DNA of 37,649 bases from Terriglobia bacterium (GTDB taxonomy: Bacteria > Acidobacteriota > Terriglobia > Acidiferrales > UBA7541): contig JAIQGC010000030.1 in the NCBI GenBank assembly GCA_020072805.1, positions 1-37,649 on the forward strand, written 5' to 3'. Position 1 is the first letter of the stretch; the number at the start of each line of letters is the position of its first letter. Below, piece by piece: positions 4,050 to 27,776 of the stretch. The position numbers and the translations under genes are program-made. Below the pieces are notes generated by a model. The model did not search any database. It was not told where the DNA came from and saw only the letters and a list, made by a program, of their open reading frames with translations.

Positions 4050-4106
4050 GCGCTGCGGCAGCCGCACGCGTTGCAAAAAGGACTGATGCGAAAGGGACTC
4101 AGCTAG

Positions 4107-5303
4107 ATGACAACGGTAGAAACCGCCACCGGCCCGGCCAAGACCATGGTCCTCAACATGGGACCGCAGCACCCGTCCACCCACGGCGTGCTGCGCATCC
4201 TCCTCGAACTGGACGGCGAAACCATCGTCAAGGCCATCCCCGACCTCGGCTACCTGCACACCGGCATCGAAAAAACCTGCGAGGCCAAGACCTACTCCCA
4301 GGCCATCACCCTCACCGATCGCATCGACTACCTCGCCCCTCTTTCCAACAATCTCGGCTACTGCCTCGCCGTCGAAAAGCTTCTCGGCCTGGAAGTCCCC
4401 AAGCGCGCCCAATACATCCGCGTCCTCCTCGCGGAAATGACCCGCATCGCCTCCCACCTGGTCTGGCTGGGCACCCACGCCATCGACCTCGGCGCCATGT
4501 CCGTCTTTCTCTACTGCTTCCGCGAGCGCGAGGAAATCCTCAAGATTTTCGAAATGGTCGCCGGCCAGCGCATGATGACCAGCTATTTCCGCATCGGCGG
4601 CCTGGCCCTCGAGCCCCCCACCGGCTGGCTCCGCGCCGTGGACCGCTTCGTGCGCATGATGCCCGGCCGCATCGACGACTACGAAACCCTGCTCACCGAA
4701 AACCGCATCTGGATGGCCCGCACCCAGGGCGTCGGCCGCATCAATCTCCAGGACGCCATTGCCCTCAGCATGACCGGCCCGGCCCTGCGCGCGGCCGGCC
4801 TCGCCTATGACAATCGCAAGCTCTTCCCCTATTCCAGCTACAAGGAATTCGATTTCCAGGTTCCTGTGCGCACCGAATCCGATTGCTACGCCCGCTACAT
4901 GATTCGCATCGCGGAAATGCGCGAAAGCCTCAAAATCATCCGCCAGGCCATGGACAAGATTCCTGCCGAAGGCCCCATCCGCGCCGAAGCCCCCGGAATC
5001 GTTCCCCCGGGCCGCGAAAAAATGAAGACGGAGATGGAAGCCCTCATCTACCACTTTAAAATTTTCACCGAGGGTTTTTCTCCCGCACCGGGAGAAGCCT
5101 ACGTCACCATCGAGTCTCCCCGCGGCGAACTGGGCGTCTTCGTCGCCAGCGACGGCACTCCCAAGCCTCTGCGCGTGCATTTCCGCACGCCCTCCTTCGT
5201 GAATTTGCAGTCCCTTCCCAAAATGGTGGAAGGGCAGATGATCGCCGACGTCATCGCCTGCATCGGCACCATTGATATCGTTCTCGGCGAGGTCGACCGA
5301 TAG
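4107..5303 (+). CDS. nuoD: NADH-quinone oxidoreductase subunit D (cluster 1)
   Basis: This 398-residue 49-kDa-type subunit forms, with NuoB, the site where cluster N2 reduces quinone. The quinone-site residues are present: His26 in [10 protein letters not shown] (corresponding to Thermus Nqo4 His38) and Tyr75 in DRIDYLAPL (corresponding to Tyr87). The typical ending [16 protein letters not shown] is intact, so the protein is full-length. The start is ATG 4107, with AAAGGGA about ten bases before it. Relative to NuoD2 it has an extra ~30-residue stretch near 290-320 (rich in E, P and M) before the conserved C-terminal part. A 176-base gap separates it from the next gene, the longest within this operon. 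Without a NuoB partner nearby it must pair with one encoded elsewhere. Confidence 0.96.
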   Translation: MTTVETATGPAKTMVLNMGPQHPSTHGVLRILLELDGETIVKAIPDLGYLHTGIEKTCEAKTYSQAITLTDRIDYLAPLSNNLGYCLAVEKLLGLEVPKRAQYIRVLLAEMTRIASHLVWLGTHAIDLGAMSVFLYCFREREEILKIFEMVAGQRMMTSYFRIGGLALEPPTGWLRAVDRFVRMMPGRIDDYETLLTENRIWMARTQGVGRINLQDAIALSMTGPALRAAGLAYDNRKLFPYSSYKEFDFQVPVRTESDCYARYMIRIAEMRESLKIIRQAMDKIPAEGPIRAEAPGIVPPGREKMKTEMEALIYHFKIFTEGFSPAPGEAYVTIESPRGELGVFVASDGTPKPLRVHFRTPSFVNLQSLPKMVEGQMIADVIACIGTIDIVLGEVDR

Positions 5304-5479
5304 GGAGCAATAGATCGACCGGCAGGGCGCGCAAGAGTATCGGCCGCAAGGCCGCGCAGCAGATGGGCAGTCGTTGCAAGAGTACGTAGTGGTGGAATTT
5401 AGCTGTCATTCTTGGTCCCGGTGTCTTTGCCCGCCGGAGCCTCGGAAGCGCAGCCAGAACAGGAATCGAGACGCTGAAC
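5304..5479 (+). other. 176-base gap between nuoD and nuoEF
   Basis: No coding region is visible. The nonamer GCAAGAGTA occurs twice, about 45 bases apart. The string CTGTCATTC at 5402-5410 matches the first bases of the repeat element at 15233-15293 and may be a decayed copy or chance. A weak promoter-like pair TTGCAA/ATTTAG lies around 5375-5403. The rest of this operon is tightly packed, so a gap of this size may mark a lost gene, an internal promoter or a repeat insertion. Confidence 0.3.
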
Positions 5480-7294
5480 ATGCAGCTTTCTCCACAACTC
5501 GCCAAGCGCTTTGAATCTCTCGAAAACCGCTATCCCGTCAAGCGCTCCGCGCTCATCCCCATGCTGATCTACGCCCAGGACGAATACGGCTACGTCAGCG
5601 ACGACATGGTTGACGAGATCGCCCGCCGCCTCGGCCTCAATAACGTCCAAGTCGAAGAGACCCTCGCCTATTACTCCATGCTCCGCCGCAAACCCATGGG
5701 CAAGCATCACGTCCAGGTCTGCACCAACGTCGCCTGCATGCTCCGCGGCGGCTACGACATTCTCGAGCGCGCCAAGCGCCGCCTCGAAATCGGCCACAAG
5801 GAAACCACCAAGGACGGCGTTTTCTCCCTCGAGGAAGTCGAATGCATCGGAGCCTGCACCGGCGCTCCCGCCATGCAGGTCAACTACGACTATTACGAGG
5901 ATCTCACCCCTTACAAGTTCGACCGCATCCTCGAAGACCTCGACGCCGGCCGCAAGTCTCCGCCCGTCCCGGTCATCACCGGCGCTCTCCACCCGCGCCA
6001 TCCCCTCGAGACTCCGCTCATCAGCAAGCGCTGGGGCATCCCCAATTCCCGCAGCATCGACGTCTATCTGCAGCACGATGGCTACAAGGCACTTGAAAAA
6101 GCCCTCAAGCAGATGACTCCTGAAACCATCATCGACGAAGTCAAGAAATCCAGCCTCCGCGGCCGCGGCGGCGCGGGCTTTCCCACGGGCATGAAGTGGA
6201 GCTTCGTCCCCAAGGATTCCCCCAAGCCCAAGTACGTCATCTGCAACGCCGACGAAAGCGAACCCGGCACCTGCAAGGACCGCCCCCTTCTCGAGATGGA
6301 CCCCCACCAGCTCATCGAAGGAATGATCATCGCCGGACGCGCCATCGGCTCCCACCGCGGCTTCATCTATATCCGCGGCGAATACCGCTACGTCCTGGAC
6401 ATCGTGGACGCCGCCATCGCCGAAGCCTATGCCCGCGGCTATCTCGGCAAGAACATTCTCGGCTCCGGCTTCGATTACGACCTGCTCATTCACACCGGCG
6501 CGGGCGCCTACGAGTGCGGCGAGGAATCCGCCCTCATGGAATCCCTCGAAGGCAAGCGCGGCTATCCCCGCATCAAGCCTCCCTTCCCCGCCGTCGTCGG
6601 CCTCTACGGCTGCCCCACCATCATCAACAACGTCGAGACTCTCAGCTCCGTTCCCCACATCATTCTCGAAGGCGGCGAATCCTACGCTAACCGCGGCACC
6701 CCCAAAAACGGCGGCACCCGCATGGTCTGCGTCTCCGGCCACGTCAATAAACCCGGCATCTACGAAGTTCCCCTCGGCTTCAACATGAAGCGCTTTATCG
6801 AGGAGGTCGCCGGCGGCATCCCCGGCGGCAGAAAACTCAAGGCCGTCATCCCCGGCGGCAGCTCCTGCCCGCTGCTCAAGCCCGAGGAAATCGATATCCC
6901 CATGGACTACGATTCCGTCGCCAAGGCCGGCTCCATGCTCGGTTCCGGCGGCATGGTCGTCGTCGACGATTCCACCTGCATGGTGGACCTCGCCCGCCGC
7001 ATCATGCACTTCTACGCCCACGAATCCTGCGGCTGGTGCATCCCCTGCCGCGAAGGAACCACCTGGCTCCGCAAAATGCTGGAACGCTTCCACGCCGGCG
7101 ACGGCCGTCCCGAGGACATTGACATGGTCGGCGAACTCGCCAGGAACATGTTGGGCAAGACTTTTTGCCCGCTCGGCGACGCCGCCGCCATGCCCACCAT
7201 CAGCATCATCACCAAGTGGCGCCACGAATTCGAAGAGCACCTGAACGGCCGCTGCGCTTATAAACAGGCCGAATCCCTGGCCGGTGCGCGGTAG
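5480..7294 (+). CDS. nuoEF: Fused NADH-quinone oxidoreductase subunits E and F
   Basis: This 604-residue protein joins the 24-kDa and 51-kDa subunits in one chain; it oxidises NADH at FMN and passes electrons to NuoG. Residues 1-165 are NuoE, with [2Fe-2S] (N1a) ligands Cys81, Cys86, Cys122 and Cys126. Residues ~180-604 are NuoF: the Gly-rich FMN/NADH loop RGRGGAGFPTGMKW (227-240), NADESEPGTCKDR (256-268), GAYECGEESALMESLEG (342-358), and N3 [4Fe-4S] ligands Cys517, Cys520 and Cys523 (SCGWCIPC) plus Cys563. The frame runs through the junction (VITGALHPRHPLET, ~165-178) without a stop or frameshift signature. Such fusions are known from HoxF-type hydrogenase diaphorases and some bacterial complex I clusters. 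The C-terminal ferredoxin-like domain of HoxF is not seen, and the setting is a nuo operon. The start is ATG 5480, with a weak ribosome-binding site. nuoG follows after 6 bases. Confidence 0.96.
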   Translation: MQLSPQLAKRFESLENRYPVKRSALIPMLIYAQDEYGYVSDDMVDEIARRLGLNNVQVEETLAYYSMLRRKPMGKHHVQVCTNVACMLRGGYDILERAKRRLEIGHKETTKDGVFSLEEVECIGACTGAPAMQVNYDYYEDLTPYKFDRILEDLDAGRKSPPVPVITGALHPRHPLETPLISKRWGIPNSRSIDVYLQHDGYKALEKALKQMTPETIIDEVKKSSLRGRGGAGFPTGMKWSFVPKDSPKPKYVICNADESEPGTCKDRPLLEMDPHQLIEGMIIAGRAIGSHRGFIYIRGEYRYVLDIVDAAIAEAYARGYLGKNILGSGFDYDLLIHTGAGAYECGEESALMESLEGKRGYPRIKPPFPAVVGLYGCPTIINNVETLSSVPHIILEGGESYANRGTPKNGGTRMVCVSGHVNKPGIYEVPLGFNMKRFIEEVAGGIPGGRKLKAVIPGGSSCPLLKPEEIDIPMDYDSVAKAGSMLGSGGMVVVDDSTCMVDLARRIMHFYAHESCGWCIPCREGTTWLRKMLERFHAGDGRPEDIDMVGELARNMLGKTFCPLGDAAAMPTISIITKWRHEFEEHLNGRCAYKQAESLAGAR

Positions 7295-7300
7295 GAACCC

Positions 7301-9553
7301 ATGGCTGAACAGACCACAGAACAAAAACTCGTCACCCTGAAGATCAATGACCGCGAAGTTCAGGTCGCTCCGGGCACCCTCGTCATCGAAGCCACACGCC
7401 GCATCGGCACCGAGGTTCCCTCCTTCTGCTATTACCCCGGTCTCTCCCTCCAGGCCGCCTGCCGCATGTGCCTGGTCGAAGTCGAAAAAATGCCCAAGCT
7501 GCAGACCGCGTGCACCCTCGTCGCCACCGAAGGCATGGTCGTGCGCACCGATTCCGAAACCGTCCGCCAGGCCCGCAAGGCCATGCTCGAATTTCTCCTC
7601 GCCAATCACCCCCTCGACTGCCCCGTCTGCGACAAGGGCGGCGAATGCGAACTTCAGGACATGGTCTTCCGCTACGGCGCGGACACCAGCCGCTTTGTCG
7701 AGGAAAAGCTCCACCGCCCCGAGGAAAAGTGGTCCGACCTCGTCTATTACGACGCCCCGCGCTGCATCCTCTGCTTCCGCTGCGTGCGCGTCTGCGATGA
7801 AGGCATGGACGTGAAAGCCCTCGGCGTGGGCATGCGCGGCGTCAACAGCATCATCACTCCCAACCGCGGCGACCATCTCGAATGCGAAGAATGCGGCATG
7901 TGCATTGACATCTGCCCCGTCGGCGCTCTCACCTCCGGCGCTTATCGCTACAAGACCCGCCCCTGGGAAATGCAGTACGTTTCCACCGTCTGCACCCATT
8001 GCTCCAACGGCTGCAAGACCACTCTCAGCGTCCGCAACCACGAGATCCTGCGCGCCAATAACCGCGACCTCTCCGGCATCAACAAGGACTTTCTCTGCGT
8101 CAAGGGCCGCTTCGGCTTCGACTTCACCTCTCACCCCGAGCGTATCCGCCAGCCCCTCCTCCGCAAGGACGGCAAACTCTATCCCGTCTCCTGGGAAGAA
8201 GCCGCCACGGCCGCCGCCACTCGCTTGAAGCAGGTCTTCGACTCCGCGGGCCCCGATTCTATCGGCTTCATCGGCTCCAACCGCACCTCCAACGAGGAGA
8301 ACTATCTCCTCCAGCGCCTCGCCCGCGCCAGCTTCGGCACCAACAACATTGACCACCACCGCACCGCCGACTACGCCGGCCTGCTCTCCGCTCTCGGCGA
8401 AGACGCCGCTTCCAAGCAGCTCACCATGGGCGATCTCGAAAACGCCCAATCCGTTCTGCTCATCGGCAACGACCCCACCGACCAGAATCCCCTCGTCGCC
8501 TGGCAGATCCGCTCCGCCATCCGTCACAACGGCGCGCGCCTATATATCCTCAACTCCAGCGAAATCCGCCTCAAGCGCAAGGCCACTCAGTTCGTGAAGC
8601 TGCTCCCCCGCCAGGAAGCCGCCGCCGTTCGCTGGCTGGCCACCGGGCAGGAACCGCTTCCCACCGACATCGTCACCGCTCTCACTTCGCTGAAAGCCGC
8701 CCTCGAAGCCGAAACCGATCTGGCCATTGTCTTCGGCTCGGAACTTTCCGGCGCGGCCATCACCCAGCTCGCCGCCTTCGCCTCCAAACTTTCCGCCCGG
8801 GTCCGCTTCATGGCCCTCGGCGATTACGCCAATTCCCGCGGCGCCGCCGACATGGGCCTGCTCCCCGACCGCTTCCCCGGCTACGCTCATCTCGATGACC
8901 GCGCCGCCCACGGATCTTTCGAAAAGCTCTGGGACGCCAAGATCCCCTCCAAGCCCGGCCTGACCGCTCCCGAAATGGTCGAAGCCGCGCAGTCCGGCAA
9001 GCTCAAGGCTCTCTACGTCGTCGGCGCCAATCCGCTGCTCCATTTCGGCAAGCGCGACGGCAGCCGCGGCAGCCTCGGCCTGCTCATCGTCCACGAACTC
9101 TTTCTTACTGAAACAGCCCAGCAGGCCGACATCGTCTTCCCCGCCGCAGGCGCCTACGAAAAAGACGGCACCGTCACCAACACGTCCGGCGAACTCCAGC
9201 TTCTCCACAAAGCCGCAGAAGTCATGGGCCCGCGCAGCGATTTCGACCTGCTCCGCATCCTTTCCCACCAGCTGGAAAAGCTGGGGCTAGGAAAAGCCTT
9301 CCATTACCGCGGCTCTGAAGCCGTTTTCGACGAGATTCGCAAGACCGTCAAAGGGTATGATGTTCCGCGGGCCGGGCTCGCGACCGGCGGCGCCGAGCAG
9401 TCGCGCATCTCCATCTCGCGCAACGGCCACGCCCCGTACGACGTTCCCGCGAACCTCATCCGTACCGCCCAGGACACCCTCTTCACCAGCGGCACCCTGG
9501 GCCGTTACTGCACCATGATGCAATCCTTACCGGAGAGCGAACCCAAGCCGTGA
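7301..9553 (+). CDS. nuoG: NADH-quinone oxidoreductase subunit G with an additional ferredoxin-type cluster
   Basis: This 750-residue subunit carries electrons from NuoF towards NuoI. N-terminal cluster ligands: N1b [2Fe-2S] Cys43, Cys54, Cys57, Cys71; N5 His103, Cys107, Cys110, Cys116; then two complete CxxCxxCxxxC motifs, Cys155/158/161/165 and Cys195/198/201/205. Classical NuoG keeps only the first three of these and the last one for N4, so this protein can bind two [4Fe-4S] clusters here, as FeFe-hydrogenase and formate dehydrogenase subunits do. Cys231, Cys234, Cys238 and Cys266 have the CxxCxxxCx27C spacing of the off-path N7 cluster. The remainder (~230-700) is the molybdopterin-oxidoreductase-like fold without its cofactor; the length is close to Thermus Nqo3 (783). 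The start is ATG 7301. The stop overlaps the nuoH GTG (9550-9553), indicating translational coupling. Confidence 0.95.
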   Translation: MAEQTTEQKLVTLKINDREVQVAPGTLVIEATRRIGTEVPSFCYYPGLSLQAACRMCLVEVEKMPKLQTACTLVATEGMVVRTDSETVRQARKAMLEFLLANHPLDCPVCDKGGECELQDMVFRYGADTSRFVEEKLHRPEEKWSDLVYYDAPRCILCFRCVRVCDEGMDVKALGVGMRGVNSIITPNRGDHLECEECGMCIDICPVGALTSGAYRYKTRPWEMQYVSTVCTHCSNGCKTTLSVRNHEILRANNRDLSGINKDFLCVKGRFGFDFTSHPERIRQPLLRKDGKLYPVSWEEAATAAATRLKQVFDSAGPDSIGFIGSNRTSNEENYLLQRLARASFGTNNIDHHRTADYAGLLSALGEDAASKQLTMGDLENAQSVLLIGNDPTDQNPLVAWQIRSAIRHNGARLYILNSSEIRLKRKATQFVKLLPRQEAAAVRWLATGQEPLPTDIVTALTSLKAALEAETDLAIVFGSELSGAAITQLAAFASKLSARVRFMALGDYANSRGAADMGLLPDRFPGYAHLDDRAAHGSFEKLWDAKIPSKPGLTAPEMVEAAQSGKLKALYVVGANPLLHFGKRDGSRGSLGLLIVHELFLTETAQQADIVFPAAGAYEKDGTVTNTSGELQLLHKAAEVMGPRSDFDLLRILSHQLEKLGLGKAFHYRGSEAVFDEIRKTVKGYDVPRAGLATGGAEQSRISISRNGHAPYDVPANLIRTAQDTLFTSGTLGRYCTMMQSLPESEPKP

Positions 9554-10800
9554 CCGACATCATCAACATCCTCCGCCAGCATTCCTTTCTCGTCATCGCA
9601 CTGGTCAAGTGCGGCCTGCTGCTGTTCATCCTTCTCACCGTGCTGGCCTACCTCAGCCTGTTCGAGCGCAAGGTTCTCGCCCACATTCAGTCCCGCTGGG
9701 GCCCCTACCGCGTAGGCCCGCACGGCCTCCTGCAGCCGCTCGCCGACGGCCTCAAATTTCTTTTCAAGGAAGACCCCATGCCCGCCGGGGTGGACCGCTT
9801 CGTCTTTCTGCTTGCGCCCTTTCTCTCGCTCGCGCTTGCGCTGACCTCGCTCGCCGTCATTCCCTTCGGCCCGCAGCCGCTGCGCTTCTCCATACTGGGC
9901 ACGCAGTACGAAACCTCGCTCGGCATCGTCGACCTCAATATCGGCCTGCTCGTCCTCTTCGCCATCACCGCCCTGGGCGTCTATGGTGTGGCCCTCGCCG
10001 GATGGGCTTCCAACAGCAAATATCCTCTCCTCGGCGGCCTGCGCAGCTCTGCGCAAATGATGAGCTACGAGCTGGCCCTCACCATGTCCGTCGTCGGCGT
10101 CATCCTTATGGCCGGCAGCTTCAATCTCCGCGAAATCGTCACCGCCCAGGAAGGCCGCATGTTCTTCGGCCTGCTTCCCCGCTGGAACGTCATCGCCGGA
10201 CCCTTTCCCCAGATCATCGGCTTCTTCTGCTATTTCGTTGCGGCCATCGCCGAAACCAACCGCGCCCCCTTCGACCTTCCCGAAGCGGAATCCGAACTCG
10301 TCGCCGGCTTCAACACCGAATACGCCAGCTTTAAATTCGCCATGTTCTTCATGGGCGAATACGCCAACATGATCACCGTCTCCTGCCTCGCCACCATCAT
10401 GTTCTTCGGCGGCTGGACCTCTCCCTTCCCCTCCGCCTGGTCCTGGACCCACTTCATCCCCAGCGCCCTCCTCGCCGTTCTCGGCGTCCTTCTCTTGATC
10501 GACGGCATTCGCTACGAAACCATTCTCGGCAAGCTCGTCCTCCCCGGCGTCGGCACGGCCCTTTGCGCCCTCTCCGCGCTGCTGCTGTTCTTCGCTCCCG
10601 TCAACAACTACATCCAGGGGCCGTTCTGGTTCCTCCTCAAAGTTTTCATCTTCATCTTTTTCTACGTGTGGATGCGCGGAACTCTCCCGCGCTTCCGCTA
10701 CGACCAGCTCATGGCCATTGGCTGGAAAATTCTGCTGCCGCTTTCCATCGCCAACGTCCTGCTGACCAGCCTGGGGATTCTCAAGTGGGGGCTCCGCTGA
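9550..10800 (+). CDS. nuoH: NADH-quinone oxidoreductase subunit H (cluster 1), enlarged
   Basis: This membrane subunit forms the quinone-access channel. The family hallmarks are FERKVLAHIQSRWGPYRVGP (38-57), the acidic loop [20 protein letters not shown] (235-254) and RGTLPRFRYDQLM (376-388). At 416 residues it is about 90 longer than E. coli NuoH. Much of the extra length is an insert at ~295-352, between GGW and the FWFLLK helix, containing two hydrophobic stretches (303-319 and 330-350) likely to be extra membrane helices. NuoH2 has a comparable insert, so it predates the split of the two clusters or is lineage-specific. The start GTG 9550 overlaps the nuoG stop. nuoI, which normally follows, is absent: nuoJ starts 34 bases downstream. 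Confidence 0.95.
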   Translation: MTDIINILRQHSFLVIALVKCGLLLFILLTVLAYLSLFERKVLAHIQSRWGPYRVGPHGLLQPLADGLKFLFKEDPMPAGVDRFVFLLAPFLSLALALTSLAVIPFGPQPLRFSILGTQYETSLGIVDLNIGLLVLFAITALGVYGVALAGWASNSKYPLLGGLRSSAQMMSYELALTMSVVGVILMAGSFNLREIVTAQEGRMFFGLLPRWNVIAGPFPQIIGFFCYFVAAIAETNRAPFDLPEAESELVAGFNTEYASFKFAMFFMGEYANMITVSCLATIMFFGGWTSPFPSAWSWTHFIPSALLAVLGVLLLIDGIRYETILGKLVLPGVGTALCALSALLLFFAPVNNYIQGPFWFLLKVFIFIFFYVWMRGTLPRFRYDQLMAIGWKILLPLSIANVLLTSLGILKWGLR

Positions 10801-10834
10801 TGCGCTCGCCGGCCCAGGGGGAGATTCGCGCGCT

Positions 10835-11329
10835 ATGACACCGCAACTCATCGTTTTCTTCGTGCTCGCCGCGCTCGCCGTTCTCGGCGCCGTCACGCTC
10901 ATCGCCGCGCGCCATCCCATTCACAGCGCGCTGGCTCTCATCGTCGTCATGGTCGCCCTCGCCGGACTCTACCTGCTGCAAGGCGCCGAATTCGTCGCCG
11001 CCGTCCAGATCATCGTCTATGGCGGCGCCATCATGGTTCTCTTCGTCTTCGTCATTATGCTTCTCAACGCCGGCGAGGAAGAGCGCACTTCCCTCTCCCG
11101 CATCGCCCGCGTCGCCGGCATTCCCCTGGCCCTGGCTCTTTCCGGATTCCTCGCCGCCGCCGTCCTGCGCTCCTCGCACGCCGCGGCCCAGGCCCCCGTG
11201 ACCGCCGCTTCCACCCGCGGGCTTTCCATGCTCCTGTTCCGGGAATTCGTCTTCCCCTTCGAGCTCACCTCCTTCTTAATCCTTGTCGCGATTCTGGGCG
11301 CGCTGGTTCTCGCCCAGCGGGAGAATTGA
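10835..11329 (+). CDS. nuoJ: NADH-quinone oxidoreductase subunit J (cluster 1)
   Basis: This 164-residue membrane subunit links the quinone chamber to the pumping arm. About five hydrophobic helices are visible (1-21, 25-46, 51-72, 88-108 and 137-160). The third contains the conserved VQIIVYGGAIMVLFVFVIML (54-73), whose Tyr-Gly-Gly pi-bulge is a hallmark of the family. The start is ATG 10835, behind GGGGGAG at 10817-10823. The stop lies one base before the nuoK ATG. In most nuo operons nuoI sits just upstream; here the 34 bases after nuoH hold nothing but the ribosome-binding site. Confidence 0.93.
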   Translation: MTPQLIVFFVLAALAVLGAVTLIAARHPIHSALALIVVMVALAGLYLLQGAEFVAAVQIIVYGGAIMVLFVFVIMLLNAGEEERTSLSRIARVAGIPLALALSGFLAAAVLRSSHAAAQAPVTAASTRGLSMLLFREFVFPFELTSFLILVAILGALVLAQREN

Positions 11330-11330
11330 C

Positions 11331-11633
11331 ATGGTTCCGGCCGGCTACTACCTCGTCCTCAGCGCCATCCTCTTCGGTTTGGGGATCGTCGCCTTCGTCT
11401 TTAAACGCAATATCATCACCATCTTCATGTCCATCGAGCTCATGCTCAACGCCGTCAACCTGGCCTTCGTCACCTTTAGCCAGGTTCTCGGCAAGCTCGA
11501 CGGCCAGGTTTTTGTCCTGTTCGTCATCGTGGTCGCCGCGGCGGAAGCCGCCGTCGGCCTCGGCATTATTATCCTAATCGCGCGCCATCGGCAGTCTCTG
11601 AACGTCGAGCGCATGGATCTGATGAAATTCTGA
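11331..11633 (+). CDS. nuoK: NADH-quinone oxidoreductase subunit K (cluster 1)
   Basis: This 100-residue, three-helix subunit is the smallest antiporter-like component of the pump. Both conserved membrane glutamates are present: Glu36 in FMSIELMLNAVNL and Glu72 in [11 protein letters not shown]. The length equals that of E. coli NuoK. The frame is open 48 bases further upstream, but ATG 11331, with GGGAG eight bases before it, gives the family-typical N-terminus. It follows nuoJ by one base and its TGA overlaps the nuoL ATG by one base (TGATG), so nuoJ-K-L are probably translationally coupled. Confidence 0.95.
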   Translation: MVPAGYYLVLSAILFGLGIVAFVFKRNIITIFMSIELMLNAVNLAFVTFSQVLGKLDGQVFVLFVIVVAAAEAAVGLGIIILIARHRQSLNVERMDLMKF

Positions 11634-13630
11634 TGCTCATACTCAACCATCTCTGGATCATTCCCCTGCTGCCCCTTCTCGGCGCGGCCATCAACGGCCT
11701 AAGCGGCCTCTTCGGCGCGAAATGGCCCAATAAGGCCGTTACTGCCGTCGCTATCGGCTCCACCGGCCTCTCGTTCCTCGCCGCCCTCGAGTGCGTCCGC
11801 GAATTCCTGAATCTCCCCGCGGCCCAGCAGGCTCTCCCCTGGGTGAAGCAATATTTCACCTGGATCGCCGCCGGAACCTTCCGCGCCGGCTTCGACCTCC
11901 AGATCGATCACCTCACCATCGTCATGCTCCTCGTCGTCACCGGCGTCGGCTGGCTCATCCACATCTACGCCACCGGCTACATGTCCCACGAAGGCGGCTA
12001 CTACCGCTTCTTCTCCTACCTCAATCTCTTCATGTTCTTCATGCTCATTCTGGTCATGGCCGCCAACTACGTTCTCCTCTTCGTCGGCTGGGAAGGCGTG
12101 GGCCTCGCCAGCTATCTGCTCATCGGCTTCTACTTCCTGAAAAAGTCCGCCTCCGACGCCGGGAAGAAAGCCTTCATCGTCAACCGCATCGGCGATTTCG
12201 GCTTCATGCTCGGCATGTTCCTCCTCTTCCGCACCTTCGGCTCGCTTGATTTCGTCACCGTCTTCGACAAAACCCGCGAACTTCCCGCCGACGCCCTCGG
12301 CCAGTTCGGCATCCTCACCATCTCCTGCCTCCTCCTCTTCATGGGCGCCACCGGCAAATCCGCCCAGCTGCCCCTCTACGTCTGGCTCCCCGACGCCATG
12401 GAAGGCCCCACGCCCGTCAGCGCCTTGATCCACGCCGCCACCATGGTCACCGCCGGCGTCTACGTGGTCGCCCGCTCACACATTCTCTTCACCCACGCGC
12501 CCACGGCCATGCTCGTCGTTGCCAGCGTCGGCGCCGCCACCGCTTTCTTCGCCGCCACCATCGGCCTCGTGCAGACCGACATCAAAAAAATTCTCGCCTA
12601 CTCCACTGTCAGCCAGCTCGGCTACATGTTCCTGGCCTGCGGCGTCGGCGCCTTCTCCGCCGGCATCTTCCATCTCATGACCCACGCCTTCTTCAAGGCC
12701 CTGCTCTTCCTCGCCGCCGGAAGCGTCATCCACGCCATGGGCGGCGAGCAGGAAGTCACCCGCATGGGCGGTCTCAGCGGCAAAATTCGCTGGACGTACT
12801 TCACCATGCTCATGGGCACCCTGGCCATCGCCGGCGCTCCCGGCTTCGCCGGTTTCTTCAGCAAGGACGCTATTCTCTTCAGCGCCTTCCAGCACGCCCC
12901 CGGTGGCCGCATCCTCTATGCTGTCGGCCTGGCCAGCGCCCTGATGACCGCCTTCTACATGTTCCGACTCATCTTCCTCACCTTCCACGGCAAGCCCCGC
13001 TTTGACGAACATCACGTCCACGTCCACGAATCGCCCAAGAGCATGCTCGGCCCCCTCGTCGTCCTGGCCCTGCTCTCCATCATCGGCGGCTGGATGGCCG
13101 CGCCCTCCTTCTGGGGCGGCACGGACCACTTCACCGCGTTCCTCGCCCCCGTCTTCGGCGCCGAAGCCGCTCCGGAAGCCGCCACCGCCGCCGTTTCCGA
13201 AGCCGCAGAGCACTCGCTCGAACTCACCCTTGCCGGAGTCGCCGTCGCCACCGCCTTCCTCGGCTTCTTCCTGGCCTTCTGGCTCTATCTCCGCAGGCCC
13301 GGCGTCGCCGACCAGATCGCCAAGTCCGCCAAGGGCGCCTACACCACCCTGCTCAACAAATACTACGTGGACGAACTCTACGCCGCCGTCATCATCCGCC
13401 CGCTCGTGTGGATCTCGGACAACGTCCTCTGGCGCGCGGTGGACGCCTCCGGGATCGACGGCGCGGTCAACGGCGCCGCCGCAGGCACGACCGCCCTCGG
13501 CGACCGCCTCCGCCGCGCGCACTCCGGCAACACCCGCAGCTACGCCGTCTGGGTGGTGATTGGCGCGCTCCTGATTCTTGCTGTGATCTTCTGGCCGATG
13601 CTCAAGCCGGCCGCTGGAATGGTGCCCTGA
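11633..13630 (+). CDS. nuoL: NADH-quinone oxidoreductase subunit L (cluster 1)
   Basis: This 665-residue distal antiporter-like subunit pumps protons and carries the long lateral helix. Typical features are GYMSHEGGYYRFFSYLNLF (115-133), the pump glutamate Glu154 in VGWEGVGLASYLLIGFYF, KKAFIVNRIGDFGF, YVWLPDAMEGPTPVSALIHAATMVTAG-type residues in the central helices, and a C-terminal lateral helix followed by a final membrane segment (~640-660). A loop at ~505-525 is rich in Ala and Glu. The start ATG 11633 overlaps the nuoK stop. nuoM follows after one base. It is similar in plan to NuoL2 but 52 residues shorter. Confidence 0.96.
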   Translation: MLILNHLWIIPLLPLLGAAINGLSGLFGAKWPNKAVTAVAIGSTGLSFLAALECVREFLNLPAAQQALPWVKQYFTWIAAGTFRAGFDLQIDHLTIVMLLVVTGVGWLIHIYATGYMSHEGGYYRFFSYLNLFMFFMLILVMAANYVLLFVGWEGVGLASYLLIGFYFLKKSASDAGKKAFIVNRIGDFGFMLGMFLLFRTFGSLDFVTVFDKTRELPADALGQFGILTISCLLLFMGATGKSAQLPLYVWLPDAMEGPTPVSALIHAATMVTAGVYVVARSHILFTHAPTAMLVVASVGAATAFFAATIGLVQTDIKKILAYSTVSQLGYMFLACGVGAFSAGIFHLMTHAFFKALLFLAAGSVIHAMGGEQEVTRMGGLSGKIRWTYFTMLMGTLAIAGAPGFAGFFSKDAILFSAFQHAPGGRILYAVGLASALMTAFYMFRLIFLTFHGKPRFDEHHVHVHESPKSMLGPLVVLALLSIIGGWMAAPSFWGGTDHFTAFLAPVFGAEAAPEAATAAVSEAAEHSLELTLAGVAVATAFLGFFLAFWLYLRRPGVADQIAKSAKGAYTTLLNKYYVDELYAAVIIRPLVWISDNVLWRAVDASGIDGAVNGAAAGTTALGDRLRRAHSGNTRSYAVWVVIGALLILAVIFWPMLKPAAGMVP

Positions 13631-13631
13631 G

Positions 13632-15377
13632 ATGCCTGCTGGACATTTGCTTTCGGTTCTGATCTTCTTCCCCGCGCTCGGCGCTCTGGCCCTGCTGATC
13701 CTTCGCGGCGATGACCACGTCTGGATTCGCCGGGTAGCTCTTGCCGTTTCCCTCGTCGAATTCGCTCTCTCCCTCCTCCTTGTCCCCGCCGTTCCCGTAG
13801 GCTCTTCCGCTTATCATCTCGAGGAACTGCGCGCCTGGATCGCCTCCCCGCCCATTCACTATCACCTCGGCGTTGACGGCATCAGCCTCTTCCTCGTCAT
13901 CCTCACCACGTTCCTCACCCCCATCTCCATCCTGGCCTCCTGGAAGAGCATCCAGCACCGCGTGAAGGAATTTTTCTTCATGCTCCTCCTCCTCGAAGTC
14001 GGCGTCGTCGGCGTCTTCCTCTCCCTCGACCTCTTCCTCTTCTTCCTCTTCTGGGAAGTGATGCTTCTTCCCATGTATTTCCTCATCGGCATCTGGGGCC
14101 ACGAGCGCCGCATCTACGCCGCCGTAAAATTCGTCCTCTACACCATGGCTGGCTCCATCCTCATGCTCGTCGCCATCGTCTGGCTCTATACCATCACCGG
14201 CACCTTCGACCTCCCCACCATCCAGACCATGCTCCAGGCCGGCTATGTCTCGCTCTCTCCCCGCGCCGAATTGCTGCTCTTCTCCGCCTTCTTCCTGGCC
14301 TTTGCCATCAAGGTTCCCCTTTTCCCGCTGCACACCTGGCTGCCCGACGCTCACGTCGAAGCCCCCACTGCCGGCTCCGTCATCCTCGCCGGCGTCCTCC
14401 TCAAGATGGGCACCTACGGCATGCTGCGCTTCTGCCTGCCGCTGTTTCCCGCGGCCTCCCGCCGCGCGGCTCCTCTCGTGGCCACTCTCGCCATCATCGG
14501 CATCATCTACGGGGCGCTCGTGGCCCTCGTTCAGCCCAATCTCAAAAAACTCGTCGCCTACTCCTCCGTCAGCCACCTCGGCTTCGTCGTCCTGGGCATT
14601 TTTGCCTTCAACAACATCTCTCTCCAGGGCGCGGTCTACCAGATGCTTAACCACGGCATCTCCACCGGCGCGCTCTTCCTCCTCGTCGGCATGCTCTATG
14701 ACCGCCGCCACACCTTTGAGATTTCCGATTTCGGCGGCCTCTCCACTCCCATGCCCCGCCTCGCCGCTTTCTTTCTCTTCGTGGCCCTCTCTTCCCTGGG
14801 CCTGCCCATGCTCAACGGCTTCGTCGGCGAATATCTGATTCTTCTGGGCACTTCCCAGGCCAGCGTCAAATGGGCCGCCTGGGCCGCTCTCGGAGTCATT
14901 CTCTCCGCCGGCTATCTCCTCTGGTCCTATCAGCGCGTCTTCTACGGCCCCGTGACCCACGCCAAGAACAAGGAACTCCCCGACCTCTCCGCGCGCGAGC
15001 AGTGGATCCTCGTCACCATGGCCTTCGTCGTCCTCTGGATGGGCATCGGCTCGCTCGATTTCACCAGCCGCTTCGCCGCCTCCTGCCAGAACGTTCTCAC
15101 CCAGATGGAACGCCCCCAGGCCCAGGAAGCCGCCGCACCCAAACCCGCCGCCACCGTGGTAGATGCTGTGCCTGCCGCAGCCTCTTCCACCGCGCCAGCC
15201 GCGGTCGTGGCCCCAGCCATCTACCACGACACTGTCATTCCGGGCGGAGTCCCGGCGAATTCTGCCGGGACGAAGTCGAGGAATCTCTCTTCGGCTCCGA
15301 CTTCGTCTCCCGCTCGACGCAACACCCCGGCATCGCCGGCAACCCCAACTTCATCGGAAAGGCTTGGAAACCGCTAA
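13632..15377 (+). CDS. nuoM: NADH-quinone oxidoreductase subunit M (cluster 1) with a repeat-derived tail
   Basis: This 581-residue antiporter-like proton-pumping subunit has the pump glutamate Glu142 in FWEVMLLPMYFLIGIWG and the lysine-containing AIKVPLFPLHTWLPDAH of the central channel, and is normal up to about residue 495. The remaining ~85 residues are not NuoM-like. First comes an Ala/Pro-rich stretch (~495-530). Then residues 534-554 are translated from a dispersed repeat element (15233-15293) with inverted arms, and the last ~27 residues are Ser/Pro/Arg-rich with no hydrophobic helix. This suggests the original stop was overrun or replaced after the repeat inserted. The tail would face the membrane edge or solvent and is probably tolerated. 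NuoM2 (536 residues) lacks the repeat-derived part. The stop directly abuts the nuoN ATG. Confidence 0.95.
   Translation: MPAGHLLSVLIFFPALGALALLILRGDDHVWIRRVALAVSLVEFALSLLLVPAVPVGSSAYHLEELRAWIASPPIHYHLGVDGISLFLVILTTFLTPISILASWKSIQHRVKEFFFMLLLLEVGVVGVFLSLDLFLFFLFWEVMLLPMYFLIGIWGHERRIYAAVKFVLYTMAGSILMLVAIVWLYTITGTFDLPTIQTMLQAGYVSLSPRAELLLFSAFFLAFAIKVPLFPLHTWLPDAHVEAPTAGSVILAGVLLKMGTYGMLRFCLPLFPAASRRAAPLVATLAIIGIIYGALVALVQPNLKKLVAYSSVSHLGFVVLGIFAFNNISLQGAVYQMLNHGISTGALFLLVGMLYDRRHTFEISDFGGLSTPMPRLAAFFLFVALSSLGLPMLNGFVGEYLILLGTSQASVKWAAWAALGVILSAGYLLWSYQRVFYGPVTHAKNKELPDLSAREQWILVTMAFVVLWMGIGSLDFTSRFAASCQNVLTQMERPQAQEAAAPKPAATVVDAVPAAASSTAPAAVVAPAIYHDTVIPGGVPANSAGTKSRNLSSAPTSSPARRNTPASPATPTSSERLGNR
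15233..15293 (+). repeat. Dispersed intergenic-type repeat inside the 3' end of nuoM
   Basis: The element begins TGTCATTCCGGGCGGAG and ends CGAAGTCGAGGAATCTC. Its centre is a perfect hairpin, GTCCCGGC (15249-15256) and GCCGGGAC (15264-15271), with a 7-base loop. A shorter relative with the same ends lies at 16912-16941. Sequences of this form are recalled as abundant intergenic repeats in Acidobacteriota and other GC-rich genomes; copy number in this genome cannot be seen from one window. Confidence 0.6.
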
Positions 15378-16799
15378 ATGTTTCCTCCGCGCGAAGAATT
15401 CCTGCGTGTCCTGCCCATCCTCATCTTTTGCGGAGGCGGGACTCTGCTCATGCTCCTCCAGCCCTTCCTGCGCTCCAGGACCGCCTTCTCCCTCCTGGCC
15501 CTCGCCGGCTCTCTCACCGCAGTGGTTTCCGTGGGCTGTTCCGCCGCCCATCCCGGCGCGGCTTTCTACGGCCTTATTGGATCCGACCCCGCAAGCGTTT
15601 TCTTTGAATTCCTCGTCGGCGCCGTCGCCTTCCTCGTCATTCTCGGTTCCGCCTCCTACCTCGAACGCGAAAGTCTCGCTCCCGCCGAATTCTACGCCCT
15701 GATCTTCTTCGCCGCCGCCGGCATGTGCGTCCTGGCCTCCGCCCGCGAAATGCTCACCGCCTTCATCGGTCTCGAAATGAGCTCCATTTCCAGCTATATC
15801 CTCGCCGGCTACCGCCGCGAATCCCCCAAGGCCGCCGAATCCGCCCTTAAATATTTCCTTCTCGGCTCCTTCGCCACCGCCTTCTTTCTCTACGGCATTG
15901 CCCTGCTCTACGGCTCCACCGGCACCACCGTCATCGCCCAAATGACGCCCCTGGCCCCCGGCCTCCTCCCCAAGCTCGGCCTCGCTCTCCTCCTCATCGG
16001 CCTGTCCTTCAAGGTTGCCGCCGCTCCCTTTCAGCTCTGGACCCCCGACGTCTATGAAGGCGCTCCCACGCCCGTTACCGCGCTCTTCTCCGCCGGCCCC
16101 AAAGCCGCCACCTTCGCCCTGCTCCTGCGCATCTTCGTCGAAATGCCCCTGGCCGCCGGGGAGTGGACCCGCATCTTCTGGATTCTCGCCGTCATCACCA
16201 TGTTCGCCGGAAACCTCGGCGCGCTTCTCCAGACCAACGTAAAGCGCATCCTGGCCTACAGCTCCATCGCCCACGCCGGCTATATCCTGGTGGCCTTCGC
16301 CGCCTCCAATGAGATCGGCGTCGCCGCAGTTCTCTTCTATCTGCTGGCCTACGCCGCCGCCAAGCTCGGGGCTTTCTCCGTCGTCGCCCATCTCGGCGGC
16401 GCCGGCGAAAAGCGCATCGAACTCGACGACTTCGCCGGTCTCGCCCAGCGCCAGCCCATCGCCGCCGCGGCTTTCAGCCTCTTCCTCCTCTCCCTCCTGG
16501 GCATTCCTGTCACCGCCGGATTCTTCGGCAAGTTTTACATCTTCAAAGCCGCCCTGGCCTCCCACCTCATCGGCTTGGCCGTCCTCTTGGGCGTCAACAG
16601 CGTCATCGCCGCCTACTACTACCTCCGCCTCATCATCGTCATGTACATGCGCGAACCCAAGGAGGAAACCGCCGCGCTGCCTTTCCCCGGCGCCGTGACA
16701 ACCGTCCTCGCCCTCTGCGCCCTAGCCACCGTCTACTTCGGCCTCTTCCCCAACCACATCATCGCCTTCGCCTCCAACCCCCGCCTCTTCGGCCACTGA
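15378..16799 (+). CDS. nuoN: NADH-quinone oxidoreductase subunit N (cluster 1)
   Basis: This 473-residue antiporter-like subunit sits between NuoK and NuoM in the pump. It has the expected ~14 hydrophobic helices, FIGLEMSSISSYILAGYRR with the pump glutamate in helix 5, SALKYFLLGSFATAF, the lysine-containing LSFKVAAAPFQLWTPDVYEGAPTPV-type segment, and NVKRILAYSSIAHAGYIL in the second half. The start ATG 15378 is immediately after the nuoM stop. It is the last gene of cluster 1 and ends 240 bases from the convergent atpE. No T-tailed terminator follows on the + strand; the hairpin at 16831-16850 is the only candidate. Confidence 0.96.
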   Translation: MFPPREEFLRVLPILIFCGGGTLLMLLQPFLRSRTAFSLLALAGSLTAVVSVGCSAAHPGAAFYGLIGSDPASVFFEFLVGAVAFLVILGSASYLERESLAPAEFYALIFFAAAGMCVLASAREMLTAFIGLEMSSISSYILAGYRRESPKAAESALKYFLLGSFATAFFLYGIALLYGSTGTTVIAQMTPLAPGLLPKLGLALLLIGLSFKVAAAPFQLWTPDVYEGAPTPVTALFSAGPKAATFALLLRIFVEMPLAAGEWTRIFWILAVITMFAGNLGALLQTNVKRILAYSSIAHAGYILVAFAASNEIGVAAVLFYLLAYAAAKLGAFSVVAHLGGAGEKRIELDDFAGLAQRQPIAAAAFSLFLLSLLGIPVTAGFFGKFYIFKAALASHLIGLAVLLGVNSVIAAYYYLRLIIVMYMREPKEETAALPFPGAVTTVLALCALATVYFGLFPNHIIAFASNPRLFGH

Positions 16800-16911: not shown

Positions 16912-16941
16912 TGTCATCCCGACCGCAGTGGAGGGATCTCT
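16912..16941 (+). repeat. Short copy of the TGTCAT...GGATCTC repeat
   Basis: TGTCATCCCGACCGCAGTGG followed by AGGGATCTC matches the two ends of the element inside nuoM (15233-15293) without its central hairpin. It lies in the convergent gap between nuoN and atpE, the usual location for such repeats. Confidence 0.55.
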
Positions 16942-16969
16942 CTTCTCTTTTCTTACGGCCATCCCAACC

Positions 16970-18775: not shown

Positions 18776-19037
18776 CCCCGTCACCCGGCAGCCTCCGCAG
18801 CACGTCGCGCACTCCCGCATAGAATCCCAGCGCCCCGAACACCAGCATCAGCACCGGCTTGGTGTGCAGCCAGCGGTCCAGAAAATATCCGATCAGCCCA
18901 CCCACCAGAATCGCCGACACCATCACGAACGGCAATTCCATGGCCATGGCGAACTGCCGCGCAAACGCCGGTTCCTGCCGCTTGCCCGGCTCCTTCCCTT
19001 CCGCTTGTGAGTTCTTATCTTCCAATGGAGAACGCAA
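18756..19037 (-). CDS. atpZ: AtpZ-family ATP synthase accessory protein
   Basis: This 93-residue protein has two membrane helices (about 32-51 and 60-76) separated by GYFLDRWLHTKP (50-61), the characteristic AtpZ/AtpI-type hairpin with GFYAGVRDVLRRL at its end. AtpZ works with AtpI in assembly of Fo or in divalent cation transport. No ATG lies early enough: the frame gives TTG at 19037 or TTG at 19025, the first ATGs being inside the first helix region, so one of the two TTG codons is used. Either choice overlaps the 3' end of nuoN2 (stop at 19015-19017), which ties the atp genes physically to the nuo genes. A 20-base overlap with atpI follows. Confidence 0.75.
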   Translation of the reverse strand: MRSPLEDKNSQAEGKEPGKRQEPAFARQFAMAMELPFVMVSAILVGGLIGYFLDRWLHTKPVLMLVFGALGFYAGVRDVLRRLPGDGDGKKGQ

Positions 19038-20622
19038 ACCGCGCCAGTTGCGCGAAGGGTTCAGGATAAACCCCCGCGGCCAGAGTTACAAACACCGCCA
19101 CCGTCAGCGCCACCGCCTGCCCCAGACTCATCACCGGATGCGGCGCATCCCCCGGCGCCTTCATCCATGCGTGCACCACCACGCGGAAATAATAATAAAG
19201 CGCGGGAACGATATACAGCGCGGCAATCACCGCCAGCACGGGATGCTGAGTATTGATGAGCGCCTGCAAAATATAATACTTGGCCATGAACCCCGCCGTC
19301 GGCGGTATCCCCGCAAGCGACATCATGAAAATCAGCAGCAGCACCGCCGCCGCCGGACTGCGCTGGTACAGGCCGTTCAAATCCTCCAGCTCGTCGCCGA
19401 TCAATCCCTTGCGCCGCAGGACGATCACCAGGGCGAACGCCCCAGTCGTCATGAACAGATAGACCATCAGATAGTAAGCCAGGCCTTGCAGGCCCACCGC
19501 GCTCCCCGCCGCCAGCCCCAGCAGAATGTACCCGCTGTGCGCAATCGAGGAATAGGCCAGCAGCCGCTTCACGTTGGTCTGGGTGATGGCCGCCAGATTT
19601 CCCCACGTCAGCGAAGCCACCGCCACCGCCGCCACCACGTAGAGCCATTGCGCGTGCGTGGCCCCGAAGACCGCCACGAAAATCCGCACCATCATGGCGA
19701 AGCTGGCCGCCTTCGACGCCACGCTCACGTAGGCCGCGATGGGCGTGGGCGCTCCTTCGTACACGTCCGGGGCCCACTGGTGAAACGGCGCCGCAGCCAC
19801 TTTGAAAAACAGTCCCGCCGCCACGGTCATAAACGCCAGCACCGGCAGCACCTGCCACAGAAACGGGTCGTGCTGCGCGATTCCCGGCAGTTGCGTTTCC
19901 AGAGAGCGGCGCACCTGCTCTCCCATCGCCCCGCCCATCTGCGTCATCTTCACTAACTCCATCACACGCACGCGCTCGGCCAGTCGCGTTCCGATTCCCT
20001 GGATGTTCGTCGAGTCGCCGATCCCGTAGAGCAGCGAAAAACCGTACGCCAGAATCCCGGAGCTGAAAGCCCCCAGCAGCATGTACTTCACCGCCGCCTC
20101 GTTCGAACGCCGCTCCCGCCGCAAGAATCCCGTCAGCACGTAAAAGCTGATGGCCATCGTCTCCAGCCCCAGAAACAACACCACCAGATCGTTCCCGCTG
20201 GCCATGAACATCATGCCCGCGCAGGCAAACAGCATCAGCGCGTAGTATTCGCCGTGATGCTCCTCTTCAATTTCCAGATATTTTACGGAGAGCAGCGCCA
20301 CCAGGGCCGTGGCCGCCAGAAACAGCGCCGAAAAAAAGATCGCGAAGGGGTCCACGAAAATACTGTCATGAAATCCCGCCAGCCCTCCGGCTTTCTCTCC
20401 CATTTCCGCGCGCACGCTCAACTGAATATACAGCCGCGAAAGCGCGTAGCCGCTGAATACCGTTCCCATCAGCGCCAGCACCGCGTTCATGTACTTGGTT
20501 TTCGCATCCATCCAGAAATCGATCAGCAGGATGCCCAGGCCGAACAGCACCAACTGCAACTGCGGCATGATCAGCACCAGGTCCTGCCGGTTGAAACTGA
20601 ATGGATTGGGGACGGTAGGCAT
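19015..20622 (-). CDS. nuoN: NADH-quinone oxidoreductase subunit N (cluster 2)
   Basis: This 535-residue antiporter-like pump subunit is intact, with FLGLETMAISFYVLTGFLRR (pump glutamate in helix 5, near 154), AAVKYMLLGAF, LFFKVAAAPFHQWAPDVYEG with the channel lysine at 274, and NVKRLLAYSSIAHSGYIL. It is 62 residues longer than NuoN1. Most of the difference is an insert at ~210-255, a soluble Arg/Glu/Met/Gln-rich loop between two helices (after LLYGIGDSTNIQG) that NuoN1 replaces with a few residues. The start is ATG 20622, nine bases after the nuoM2 stop. The 3' end overlaps atpZ. Confidence 0.96.
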   Translation of the reverse strand: MPTVPNPFSFNRQDLVLIMPQLQLVLFGLGILLIDFWMDAKTKYMNAVLALMGTVFSGYALSRLYIQLSVRAEMGEKAGGLAGFHDSIFVDPFAIFFSALFLAATALVALLSVKYLEIEEEHHGEYYALMLFACAGMMFMASGNDLVVLFLGLETMAISFYVLTGFLRRERRSNEAAVKYMLLGAFSSGILAYGFSLLYGIGDSTNIQGIGTRLAERVRVMELVKMTQMGGAMGEQVRRSLETQLPGIAQHDPFLWQVLPVLAFMTVAAGLFFKVAAAPFHQWAPDVYEGAPTPIAAYVSVASKAASFAMMVRIFVAVFGATHAQWLYVVAAVAVASLTWGNLAAITQTNVKRLLAYSSIAHSGYILLGLAAGSAVGLQGLAYYLMVYLFMTTGAFALVIVLRRKGLIGDELEDLNGLYQRSPAAAVLLLIFMMSLAGIPPTAGFMAKYYILQALINTQHPVLAVIAALYIVPALYYYFRVVVHAWMKAPGDAPHPVMSLGQAVALTVAVFVTLAAGVYPEPFAQLARFAFSIGR

Positions 20623-20631
20623 GGCCGCCGG

Positions 20632-22242
20632 CTACTTCGCCGGCTCCTCCACATTGACTTTCTCCGACCGCGGGATACTGCCGGCAACCGGCAGAGGCCC
20701 ATCGATGGGTGATTTCACTTCCGCGCTCTTGTAGTAGCCCGGATTGACCATTTCGACGATCAATTGCACGGGCTTCTCCAGATAGCGGAAGAACGGCTTG
20801 GGATAAATGCCGATCCAGAAGGCCAGGACCACCAGCGGCAGAAGCGTGGCGTACTCGCGCAGGTTCAGGTCCGGCAATTTCTCGTTTTCCGGCTTGGTCA
20901 CCGCGCCGAACATTACCCGCTGATAGAGCCACAGCAGATACGCCGCTCCCAGGATCACGCCCAGCGCGGCCCATGCTGCCCACGTTTTGTTGACCTCGAA
21001 GACTCCGCGCAGGATCGTAAACTCTCCGATGAAGCCGTTGAGCAGAGGCATGCCCAGGGAACTGAGGCTGACGATCATGTAGATGGCCGCGAAATTGGGC
21101 ATGGGCGTGGAGAGTCCGCCGAATTCGGAAATCAGGCGCGTGTGCCTGCGCTCGTAGAGCACGCCCACGATCAGGAACAGCGCCCCGGTGGAAATTCCGT
21201 GATTGATCTGCTGCAGGATGCTGCCGGCCAAGCCGTGCGGGGTCAGCGCGAAAATTCCCAGCGTGCAGAAGCCCAGATGGCTCACTGAACTGTAGGCGAT
21301 CAGGCGCTTCATGTCTTTCTGCATCATGCACACCAGCGCGCCGTAGACGATGCCCACCAGCGAGAGCAGCACGACGATGTGAATGATCTTCCCGCGCAGG
21401 GCCGCGTCGGCGGGAAGCAGCGGCAACGAGAAGCGCACAAAACCGTACGTGCCCATTTTCAGGAGAACACCGGCCAGAATCACCGAGCCCGCCGTGGGCG
21501 CTTCCGTATGCGCGTCCGGCAGCCAGGTGTGGAACGGGAACATGGGCACCTTGATGGCAAAGGCAAAGAAAAATCCCCAGAAGAGCCAAACCTTCAGCCC
21601 GTCCGGAAACTGCTGCGCCGCGGCCAGCAGCGTGGGGACGTCAAAGGTAGGCGGCGCGCCGCTCTTGGCGGCGTTGAAATACACCGCCAGAATTCCCAGC
21701 AGCATCACCACCGAGCCCGCCAGCGTGTACAGGAAGAACTTGATGGCCGCATACAGGCGTCGCTCGCTTCCCCACACGCCGATCAGGAAGTACATGGGCA
21801 CCAGCATCACTTCCCAGAAGACGTAGAAGAGGAAAAAGTCGAGCGACAGAAACACGCCCAGCATGCCCGTCTGCAACAGAAGAAAGAGAATGTAATACTC
21901 CTTCTTGCGCAGTTGGATCGCCTTCCACGACGAGAGAATCGAAATCATTCCCAGCAGCGTGGTCAGCAGCACGAGAAGAAAGCTGATGCCGTCCATGCCC
22001 AGCGAATAGTGCGCGCCGATGGAGGGAATCCAGTCGGCGTTTTCCCGGAACTGATAGCCGGCCACATCCGGGCGAAAGCGGGCCAGCAGCGGCAGCGAAA
22101 CGACAAACCCCAGCACGCCGAAGACGTTGCCCAGAACGCGGTGGGCGTTCTCCATGGCCCGGGGCACTAGCAGCAACAGCAGCGCCCCGGCCAGCGGCGT
22201 GAACAGAATCACGCTCAGCAGATGATGATCTAGAAGAGCCAT
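20632..22242 (-). CDS. nuoM: NADH-quinone oxidoreductase subunit M (cluster 2)
   Basis: This 536-residue antiporter-like pump subunit has Glu144 in FWEVMLVPMYFLIGVWG, exactly the position of the pump glutamate of E. coli NuoM, and AIKVPMFPFHTWLPDAHTEAPT for the central lysine channel. A hydrophilic tail of about 30 residues (ending VNVEEPAK) follows the last helix but contains no repeat, unlike NuoM1. The start is ATG 22240-22242, with GAAGAG close upstream, 12 bases after the nuoL2 stop. Sequence divergence from NuoM1 is large, so the two clusters are old paralogues or came from different sources. Confidence 0.96.
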   Translation of the reverse strand: MALLDHHLLSVILFTPLAGALLLLLVPRAMENAHRVLGNVFGVLGFVVSLPLLARFRPDVAGYQFRENADWIPSIGAHYSLGMDGISFLLVLLTTLLGMISILSSWKAIQLRKKEYYILFLLLQTGMLGVFLSLDFFLFYVFWEVMLVPMYFLIGVWGSERRLYAAIKFFLYTLAGSVVMLLGILAVYFNAAKSGAPPTFDVPTLLAAAQQFPDGLKVWLFWGFFFAFAIKVPMFPFHTWLPDAHTEAPTAGSVILAGVLLKMGTYGFVRFSLPLLPADAALRGKIIHIVVLLSLVGIVYGALVCMMQKDMKRLIAYSSVSHLGFCTLGIFALTPHGLAGSILQQINHGISTGALFLIVGVLYERRHTRLISEFGGLSTPMPNFAAIYMIVSLSSLGMPLLNGFIGEFTILRGVFEVNKTWAAWAALGVILGAAYLLWLYQRVMFGAVTKPENEKLPDLNLREYATLLPLVVLAFWIGIYPKPFFRYLEKPVQLIVEMVNPGYYKSAEVKSPIDGPLPVAGSIPRSEKVNVEEPAK

Positions 22243-22254
22243 ACTCTTCGCCTT

Positions 22255-24408
<2,154 letters not shown>

Positions 24409-24439
24409 GCTCCGCCCCGACTCTCTTTCTCTTGCAGCG

Positions 24440-24742: not shown

Positions 24743-24749
24743 CGTTCCC

Positions 24750-27764: not shown

Positions 27765-27776
27765 TCGCGCCTCTTC

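Follow-up and report, generated by a model that had tools for sequence, protein, structure and literature searches.

A dispersed hairpin repeat lies in frame within the variable C-terminal tail of an acidobacterial NuoM

How a normally intergenic repeat comes to lie in frame near the end of a core respiratory gene, and whether the residues it supplies matter, is the question raised by the first nuoM copy in a window of 37,649 nucleotides (the whole stretch of DNA analyzed) from a soil acidobacterium with a genome of 3.98 Mb in 157 contigs. The gene (positions 13632 to 15377, plus strand; delimited by open reading frame [ORF] and gene models) encodes 581 residues, and nuoN (15378 to 16799, plus strand) begins directly after its stop codon (TAAATG). 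Residues 7 to 491 are covered by TIGR01972, the model for the NuoM subfamily, and no Pfam family matched the final 96 residues at E values of up to 10, in agreement with a first-pass annotation of this DNA in which the last ~85 residues were described as not NuoM-like. The tail outside the model (residues 492 to 581; 15105 to 15374, plus strand) was variable in relatives and was predicted to be disordered from residue 498 on, with pLDDT values of <50 for residues 498 to 581 (AlphaFold2, alignment of 30 sequences). Two facing sets of complex I genes are present in the window, one on the plus strand (4107 to 16799) and one on the minus strand (19018 to 28415), the latter comprising a second NuoM, a NuoL-like and a further antiporter-like subunit, NuoH, the 49- and 30-kDa subunits, and a NuoJ-type gene.

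A covariance model built from 20 copies of the repeat identified at least 74 matches in the 3.98-Mb genome (E values of up to 0.01), at least 38 of them full length (53 bits or more); these counts are lower bounds, as 150 of 3,826 first-look candidates were scored. The sequence is thus dispersed and not unique, as the first-pass annotation had supposed. In nuoM, a full-length copy (15234 to 15292, plus strand; 77 bits, E = 5.5e-19), delimited by covariance model, end pattern, and copy alignment, lies in frame from residue 535, where its translation begins VIPGGVPANSAGTKSRNL. The consensus of the 20 copies starts with GTCATTCCGA and ends with GAGGAATCTCTCTTC, and the two-end pattern GTCATYCCGN{15,44}GAGGRATCT gave 29 exact matches in the genome (one of which covers two adjoining short copies) and none with a reversed control. 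Downstream of nuoN, a short form of the repeat is found at 16913 to 16945 (16912 to 16939 by pattern; plus strand; 41.5 bits). The conserved ends and internal hairpin, the in-frame position in nuoM, and the shorter copy after nuoN had all been noticed earlier and were borne out by these searches. Matches were present in all 36 genus genomes searched, this one included, at numbers ranging from at least 1 to at least 138 per genome (at least 70 in this genome; E values of up to 0.001), each being a lower bound from at most 150 scored candidates.

The inner hairpin of the nuoM copy (15249 to 15271, plus strand), recognized by fold, alignment, and covariation, pairs GTCCCGGC (15249 to 15256) with GCCGGGAC (15264 to 15271), a stem sequence of its own that is still fully paired. 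In the covariation set, which consisted of 20 sequences chosen by their fit to the end pattern and from which the structure itself was drawn, 98.2% of cells were paired and both sides had changed in 9 of 14 pairs; neither value was reached in any of 500 shuffles. The outer stem was ATTCC/GGAAT only. The predicted RNA fold of 15225 to 15300 was more stable than that of shuffled sequences (z = −2.73; 0 of 200). A possible second hairpin (15269 to 15307, plus strand), proposed from the sequence, would join GACGAAGTCG (15269 to 15278) to CGACTTCGTC (15298 to 15307) in the 3′ flank, and BLAST matches extend to 15303; upon inspection by eye of the flanks of 38 copies, a related 3′ extension was seen in about half of the other copies. 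With respect to the terminal inverted repeats and target-site duplications that mark MITEs, the copies had only this outer stem, the same flanks showed no consistent duplication by eye, and the insertion boundaries in nuoM were not fixable. Among the short-form copies L006, L007, L010, L013, and L018, several had complementary flanks by eye, GCTGAAAAA-like before and TTTTTCAGC-like after, which suggests a larger composite element.

NuoM tails were compared with those of relatives. A NuoM search matched 60 of 61 genomes, and 30 loci were read, namely, that of this genome and those of 29 of 35 congeners. A variable tail was present in all 30 genes; counted from residue 494, it measured 88 residues in this genome, 77 in congener G033, and between 30 and 63 in the remaining 28. 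In the closest relatives (G009 and G007; 86% identical), the tail had 38 residues and lacked the repeat, and these two genes and the one studied here all ended ERLGNR-TAAATG. The tail of the NuoM studied here contains an additional stretch of about 50 codons; the repeat provides about 20 of these and does not account for about 90 of the 150 extra bases. When 15117 to 15377 was compared with the genome by BLAST, repeat-type matches ran from about 15226 to 15303, and beyond these limits there were a few 20- to 27-base matches with E values of 0.13 or worse among the 40 of 101 candidates scored. The insert was seen in this genome only and in none of the 29 congeners. Because the nearest relatives without the insert share the ERLGNR-TAAATG end, the repeat, as judged from these alignments, sits inside a tail older than itself and did not create that tail. 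The first-pass annotation had taken the repeat to extend the protein at its end, a claim that gave way to an insertion within an older, variable tail with ERLGNR, the stop codon, and nuoN kept. Its account of the nuoM 3′ end held in that relatives had a tail but did not carry the same one as a conserved domain. The tail as a conserved domain was rejected: only the last codons were conserved in relatives, no Pfam family matched, and disorder was predicted. Just upstream of the dispersed repeat lies an 11-bp perfect inverted repeat, CGTGGTAGATG/CATCTACCACG (15155 to 15165 and 15218 to 15228), of which no further copies were found in the genome among the 40 of 101 candidates scored in the same BLAST search.

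The conserved end of nuoM looks, from its sequence, like the ribosome-binding site of nuoN. The last codons in most congeners were GAA AGG CTx GGA xxx CGC TAA ATG, and GAAAGG (15357 to 15362, plus strand), which reads Glu-Arg in the nuoM frame, is on this codon pattern the likely binding site. GAAAGG falls within the sequence complementary to the 16S rRNA 3′ end. Among the 30 tails, 26 had Arg as the fifth codon from the stop, encoded by AGG in 25 of them; in the rest of these genes, AGG made up 12 of 607 Arg codons. The genes are related, so that a binomial value for the comparison is not a probability. In the other 5 of 30 tails, AGG was replaced at this position. AGG lies 15 nt from the nuoN ATG, which is long for a Shine-Dalgarno site. 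In G033, the tail contained a 26-nt short form of the repeat (22.2 bits, E = 0.0023), and the frame at the gene end differed, yet AAAGGCTG stood at the matching place and the TGA stop overlapped the nuoN ATG. This suggests that nucleotide letters were kept rather than residues. G033 is not a clean natural test, because its nuoN (locus L110), otherwise collinear, has an in-frame TGA at codon 241 from the ATG at 4216, which is either a sequencing error or a real lesion.

A wider set of named NuoM relatives, mostly Acidobacteria metagenome-assembled genomes with several labeled gp2 or Candidatus Acidiferrum, comprised 80 loci kept of 556 confirmed, including 13 contigs already read as congeners. 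An ORF of >100 codons started between −12 and +30 of the nuoM stop in 76 of the 80, and a Shine-Dalgarno-like word preceded it in 43 of these 76, versus 48 of 2,740 gene-body control windows; the other 33 had no scored binding-site word. In many acidobacterial nuoM genes outside the genus (e.g., L124, L141, and L166), GGAGG precedes a nuoN ATG placed 8 bases ahead of the nuoM stop; this −8 spacing was present in 36 of the 80 loci. Because the nuoN ATG there overlaps the nuoM end with GGAGG, the recurrent NuoM ending like EVA(N/D)AR corresponds to the nuoN start region. What would pass for a conserved C-terminal motif here appears to be mostly the ribosome-binding site of the next gene, so that annotators should not call such tails domains, and conservation of peptide and of RNA seem separable at the junction of two operon genes.

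Our preferred explanation, which we consider probable, is a neutral in-frame insertion of the dispersed repeat into a translated spacer at the nuoM end. A small hairpin repeat of this genome and genus would have inserted at the nuoM 3′ end in this lineage and, together with flanking DNA, would have added about 50 codons, introducing neither a stop codon nor a net shift in frame. It would have gone into the older tail, disordered and sequence-free, that separates the last membrane helix from the nuoN start signals. Ribosomes would read through this tail, presumably making the long protein, and would stop beside the nuoN start codon. Held fixed would be the last 20 or so bases, the nuoN ribosome-binding site in the nuoM frame; if translation of nuoN is coupled to termination of nuoM, the frame would have to stay open. 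The repeat was probably tolerated because what is conserved at the tail end resembles a start signal for nuoN, and the inserted residues are most likely without a function of their own. A core respiratory protein would thus be able to acquire dozens of repeat-derived residues with no visible sign of selection on them.

In a rival reading, the repeat-derived tail would have been co-opted, with selection acting on the additional residues or on the RNA hairpin for a role in complex I or in setting the pace at which translation enters nuoN. From the last base of the inner stem (15271), it is about 85 nt to GAAAGG (15357) and about 105 nt to the nuoN ATG (15378). For GAAAGG, the predicted mean openness came to 0.44 when the repeat was present and to 0.55 for the 3′ part by itself, compared with 0.22 and 0.36 in the two relatives that lack the repeat. 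Because of these values, an effect of the hairpin on the nuoN start would be at most mild. The hairpin as a mask on the nuoN start was rejected, being too far upstream for simple masking and, in the folding model, leaving openness little changed. Of the strong hairpin that had earlier been placed just before nuoN, the strength stood up against shuffles, and the position did not, given the distance to the ATG. The full pairing of the nuoM copy with its own stem sequence and a frame open to the native end speak for co-option; we consider it unlikely, given an insert not conserved in 29 congeners, a tail with predicted disorder and no family match, a poor codon score in and after the repeat, and a nuoN start predicted to be little affected.

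A codon-usage score trained on 18 genes of the window called 1 of the 38 full-length copies coding, namely, the nuoM copy, at each of three thresholds, at which 391, 376, and 340 of 525 random positions in the same loci were called coding. With 1 of 38 copies called coding against 376 of 525 random positions, the repeat family is an intergenic one from which the nuoM copy departs. This upholds the earlier view of a normally intergenic repeat. A weakly scoring ORF on the opposite strand terminates inside the L087 copy. Along nuoM, the score dropped from +26.3 (100 codons before the repeat) to −3.7 (19 codons within) and −20.8 (27 codons after). Both this drop and the failure of all 37 other full-length copies to be called coding would fit a NuoM that ends earlier, or a frameshift that leaves the tail untranslated and the repeat effectively intergenic. 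We consider this quite improbable, since the NuoM frame runs to the native end without a stop, the last codons there share the frame used in the relatives, and recently inserted noncoding DNA is expected to score poorly. Very improbable is an assembly or binning artifact of this metagenome-derived or draft genome: the insert was judged from the assembly alone, the genome is in many contigs, and repeats cause misassembly, but both flanks correspond to nuoM and nuoN of congeners within a single open frame, the native end picks up again exactly, and the stem of the nuoM copy is unlike that of every other aligned copy and was therefore not copied from another locus by the assembler.

In-frame insertions of comparable elements are already known. 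REP elements (GTAG- and CGTC-tagged families) are described as small hairpins of high copy number that lie mostly between genes, some copies falling within ORFs (PMC3733652). The present repeat is like them in its high copy number, its covarying hairpin, and the noncoding call for 37 of 38 full-length copies. Unlike canonical REP elements, it has no GTAG or CGTC tag at the hairpin foot in the consensus of 20 copies (CGTC occurs only inside the stem), and no RAYT (TnpA_REP) gene stood beside a copy at the loci of three Y1_Tnp genes. These three genes were found in the genome by a PF01797 search, and two had a RAYT-like Y-motif by eye; no paired repeat ends were present in the 2.1- to 3.3-kb loci around them, one of which begins near a contig end. 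As mobilizer of the repeat they were rejected, none lying beside a copy, and no link is claimed. Rickettsia palindromic elements (RPEs) are described as palindromic repeats in frame in working genes, many RPEs being in genes (PMC3733652). By that description, the present repeat is similar in lying in frame in a conserved gene and in being absent from the copies of relatives, but it is another repeat in another phylum, and 1 of 38 full-length copies of its family is in a gene. In Coxiella, QMITE2 at the end of enhC is reported to give the last 33 residues in frame, followed by a stop (PMC5896051); here too the repeat supplies C-terminal residues in frame, but the native nuoM end is kept after the insert. 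The insertion described here falls in a complex I gene and leaves the native end of that gene intact. Class 3 TnpA_Y1-associated hairpins of Acidobacteria are described with the foot CnGA and about 600 copies in Solibacter (PMC6006769). The present repeat is likewise acidobacterial and of high copy number, with CCGA before the stem in 18 of 20 aligned copies of its genome, but the nuoM copy has CCGG, and the three Y1_Tnp genes were not class 3-like by eye and had no copy beside them. From that account, such hairpins are a possible origin of the repeat. Among open-license PMC papers, no record of the repeat was found in the matches listed for its sequence words or for acidobacterial repetitive extragenic palindromes, and no paper was found on the NuoM C terminus in Acidobacteria.

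Two of 97 nuoM loci matched the repeat model, those of this genome and of G033 (the set excludes 13 named loci on contigs already included). In the bryobacterial NuoM at L141, the tail contained an unrelated palindrome with a 23-bp stem, a stretch that gave 106 BLAST matches in its genome (arms and strands counted separately). Repeats in the NuoM tails of three lineages (this one, G033, and L141) are a recurrence and do not prove a hotspot. There was no support for NuoM tails being a general hotspot of palindromes, as stems of >10 bp were present in only 2 of 76 distinct tails, those of L141 (23 bp) and of this genome (11 bp). The latter stem is the inverted repeat upstream of the dispersed repeat, not the hairpin of the repeat itself. 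Control gene-body segments had a 12-bp stem once among 380.

Beyond the neutral insertion in this one gene, we tentatively propose, at somewhat less than even confidence, that the NuoM end of Acidobacteriota is a translated spacer in which only the RNA letters of the nuoN start signals are selected, while the rest evolves like intergenic DNA and unrelated repeats settle there repeatedly, as in this genome, G033, and L141. The G033 tail would then be a natural frameshift whose end was kept as RNA and not as peptide. If this is true, past insertions of repeats can be read from the tail of a core respiratory subunit. The NuoM tail at L155 (around 4076 to 4138) consists of more than 110 residues of tandem short units, e.g., NQAHPNQ.
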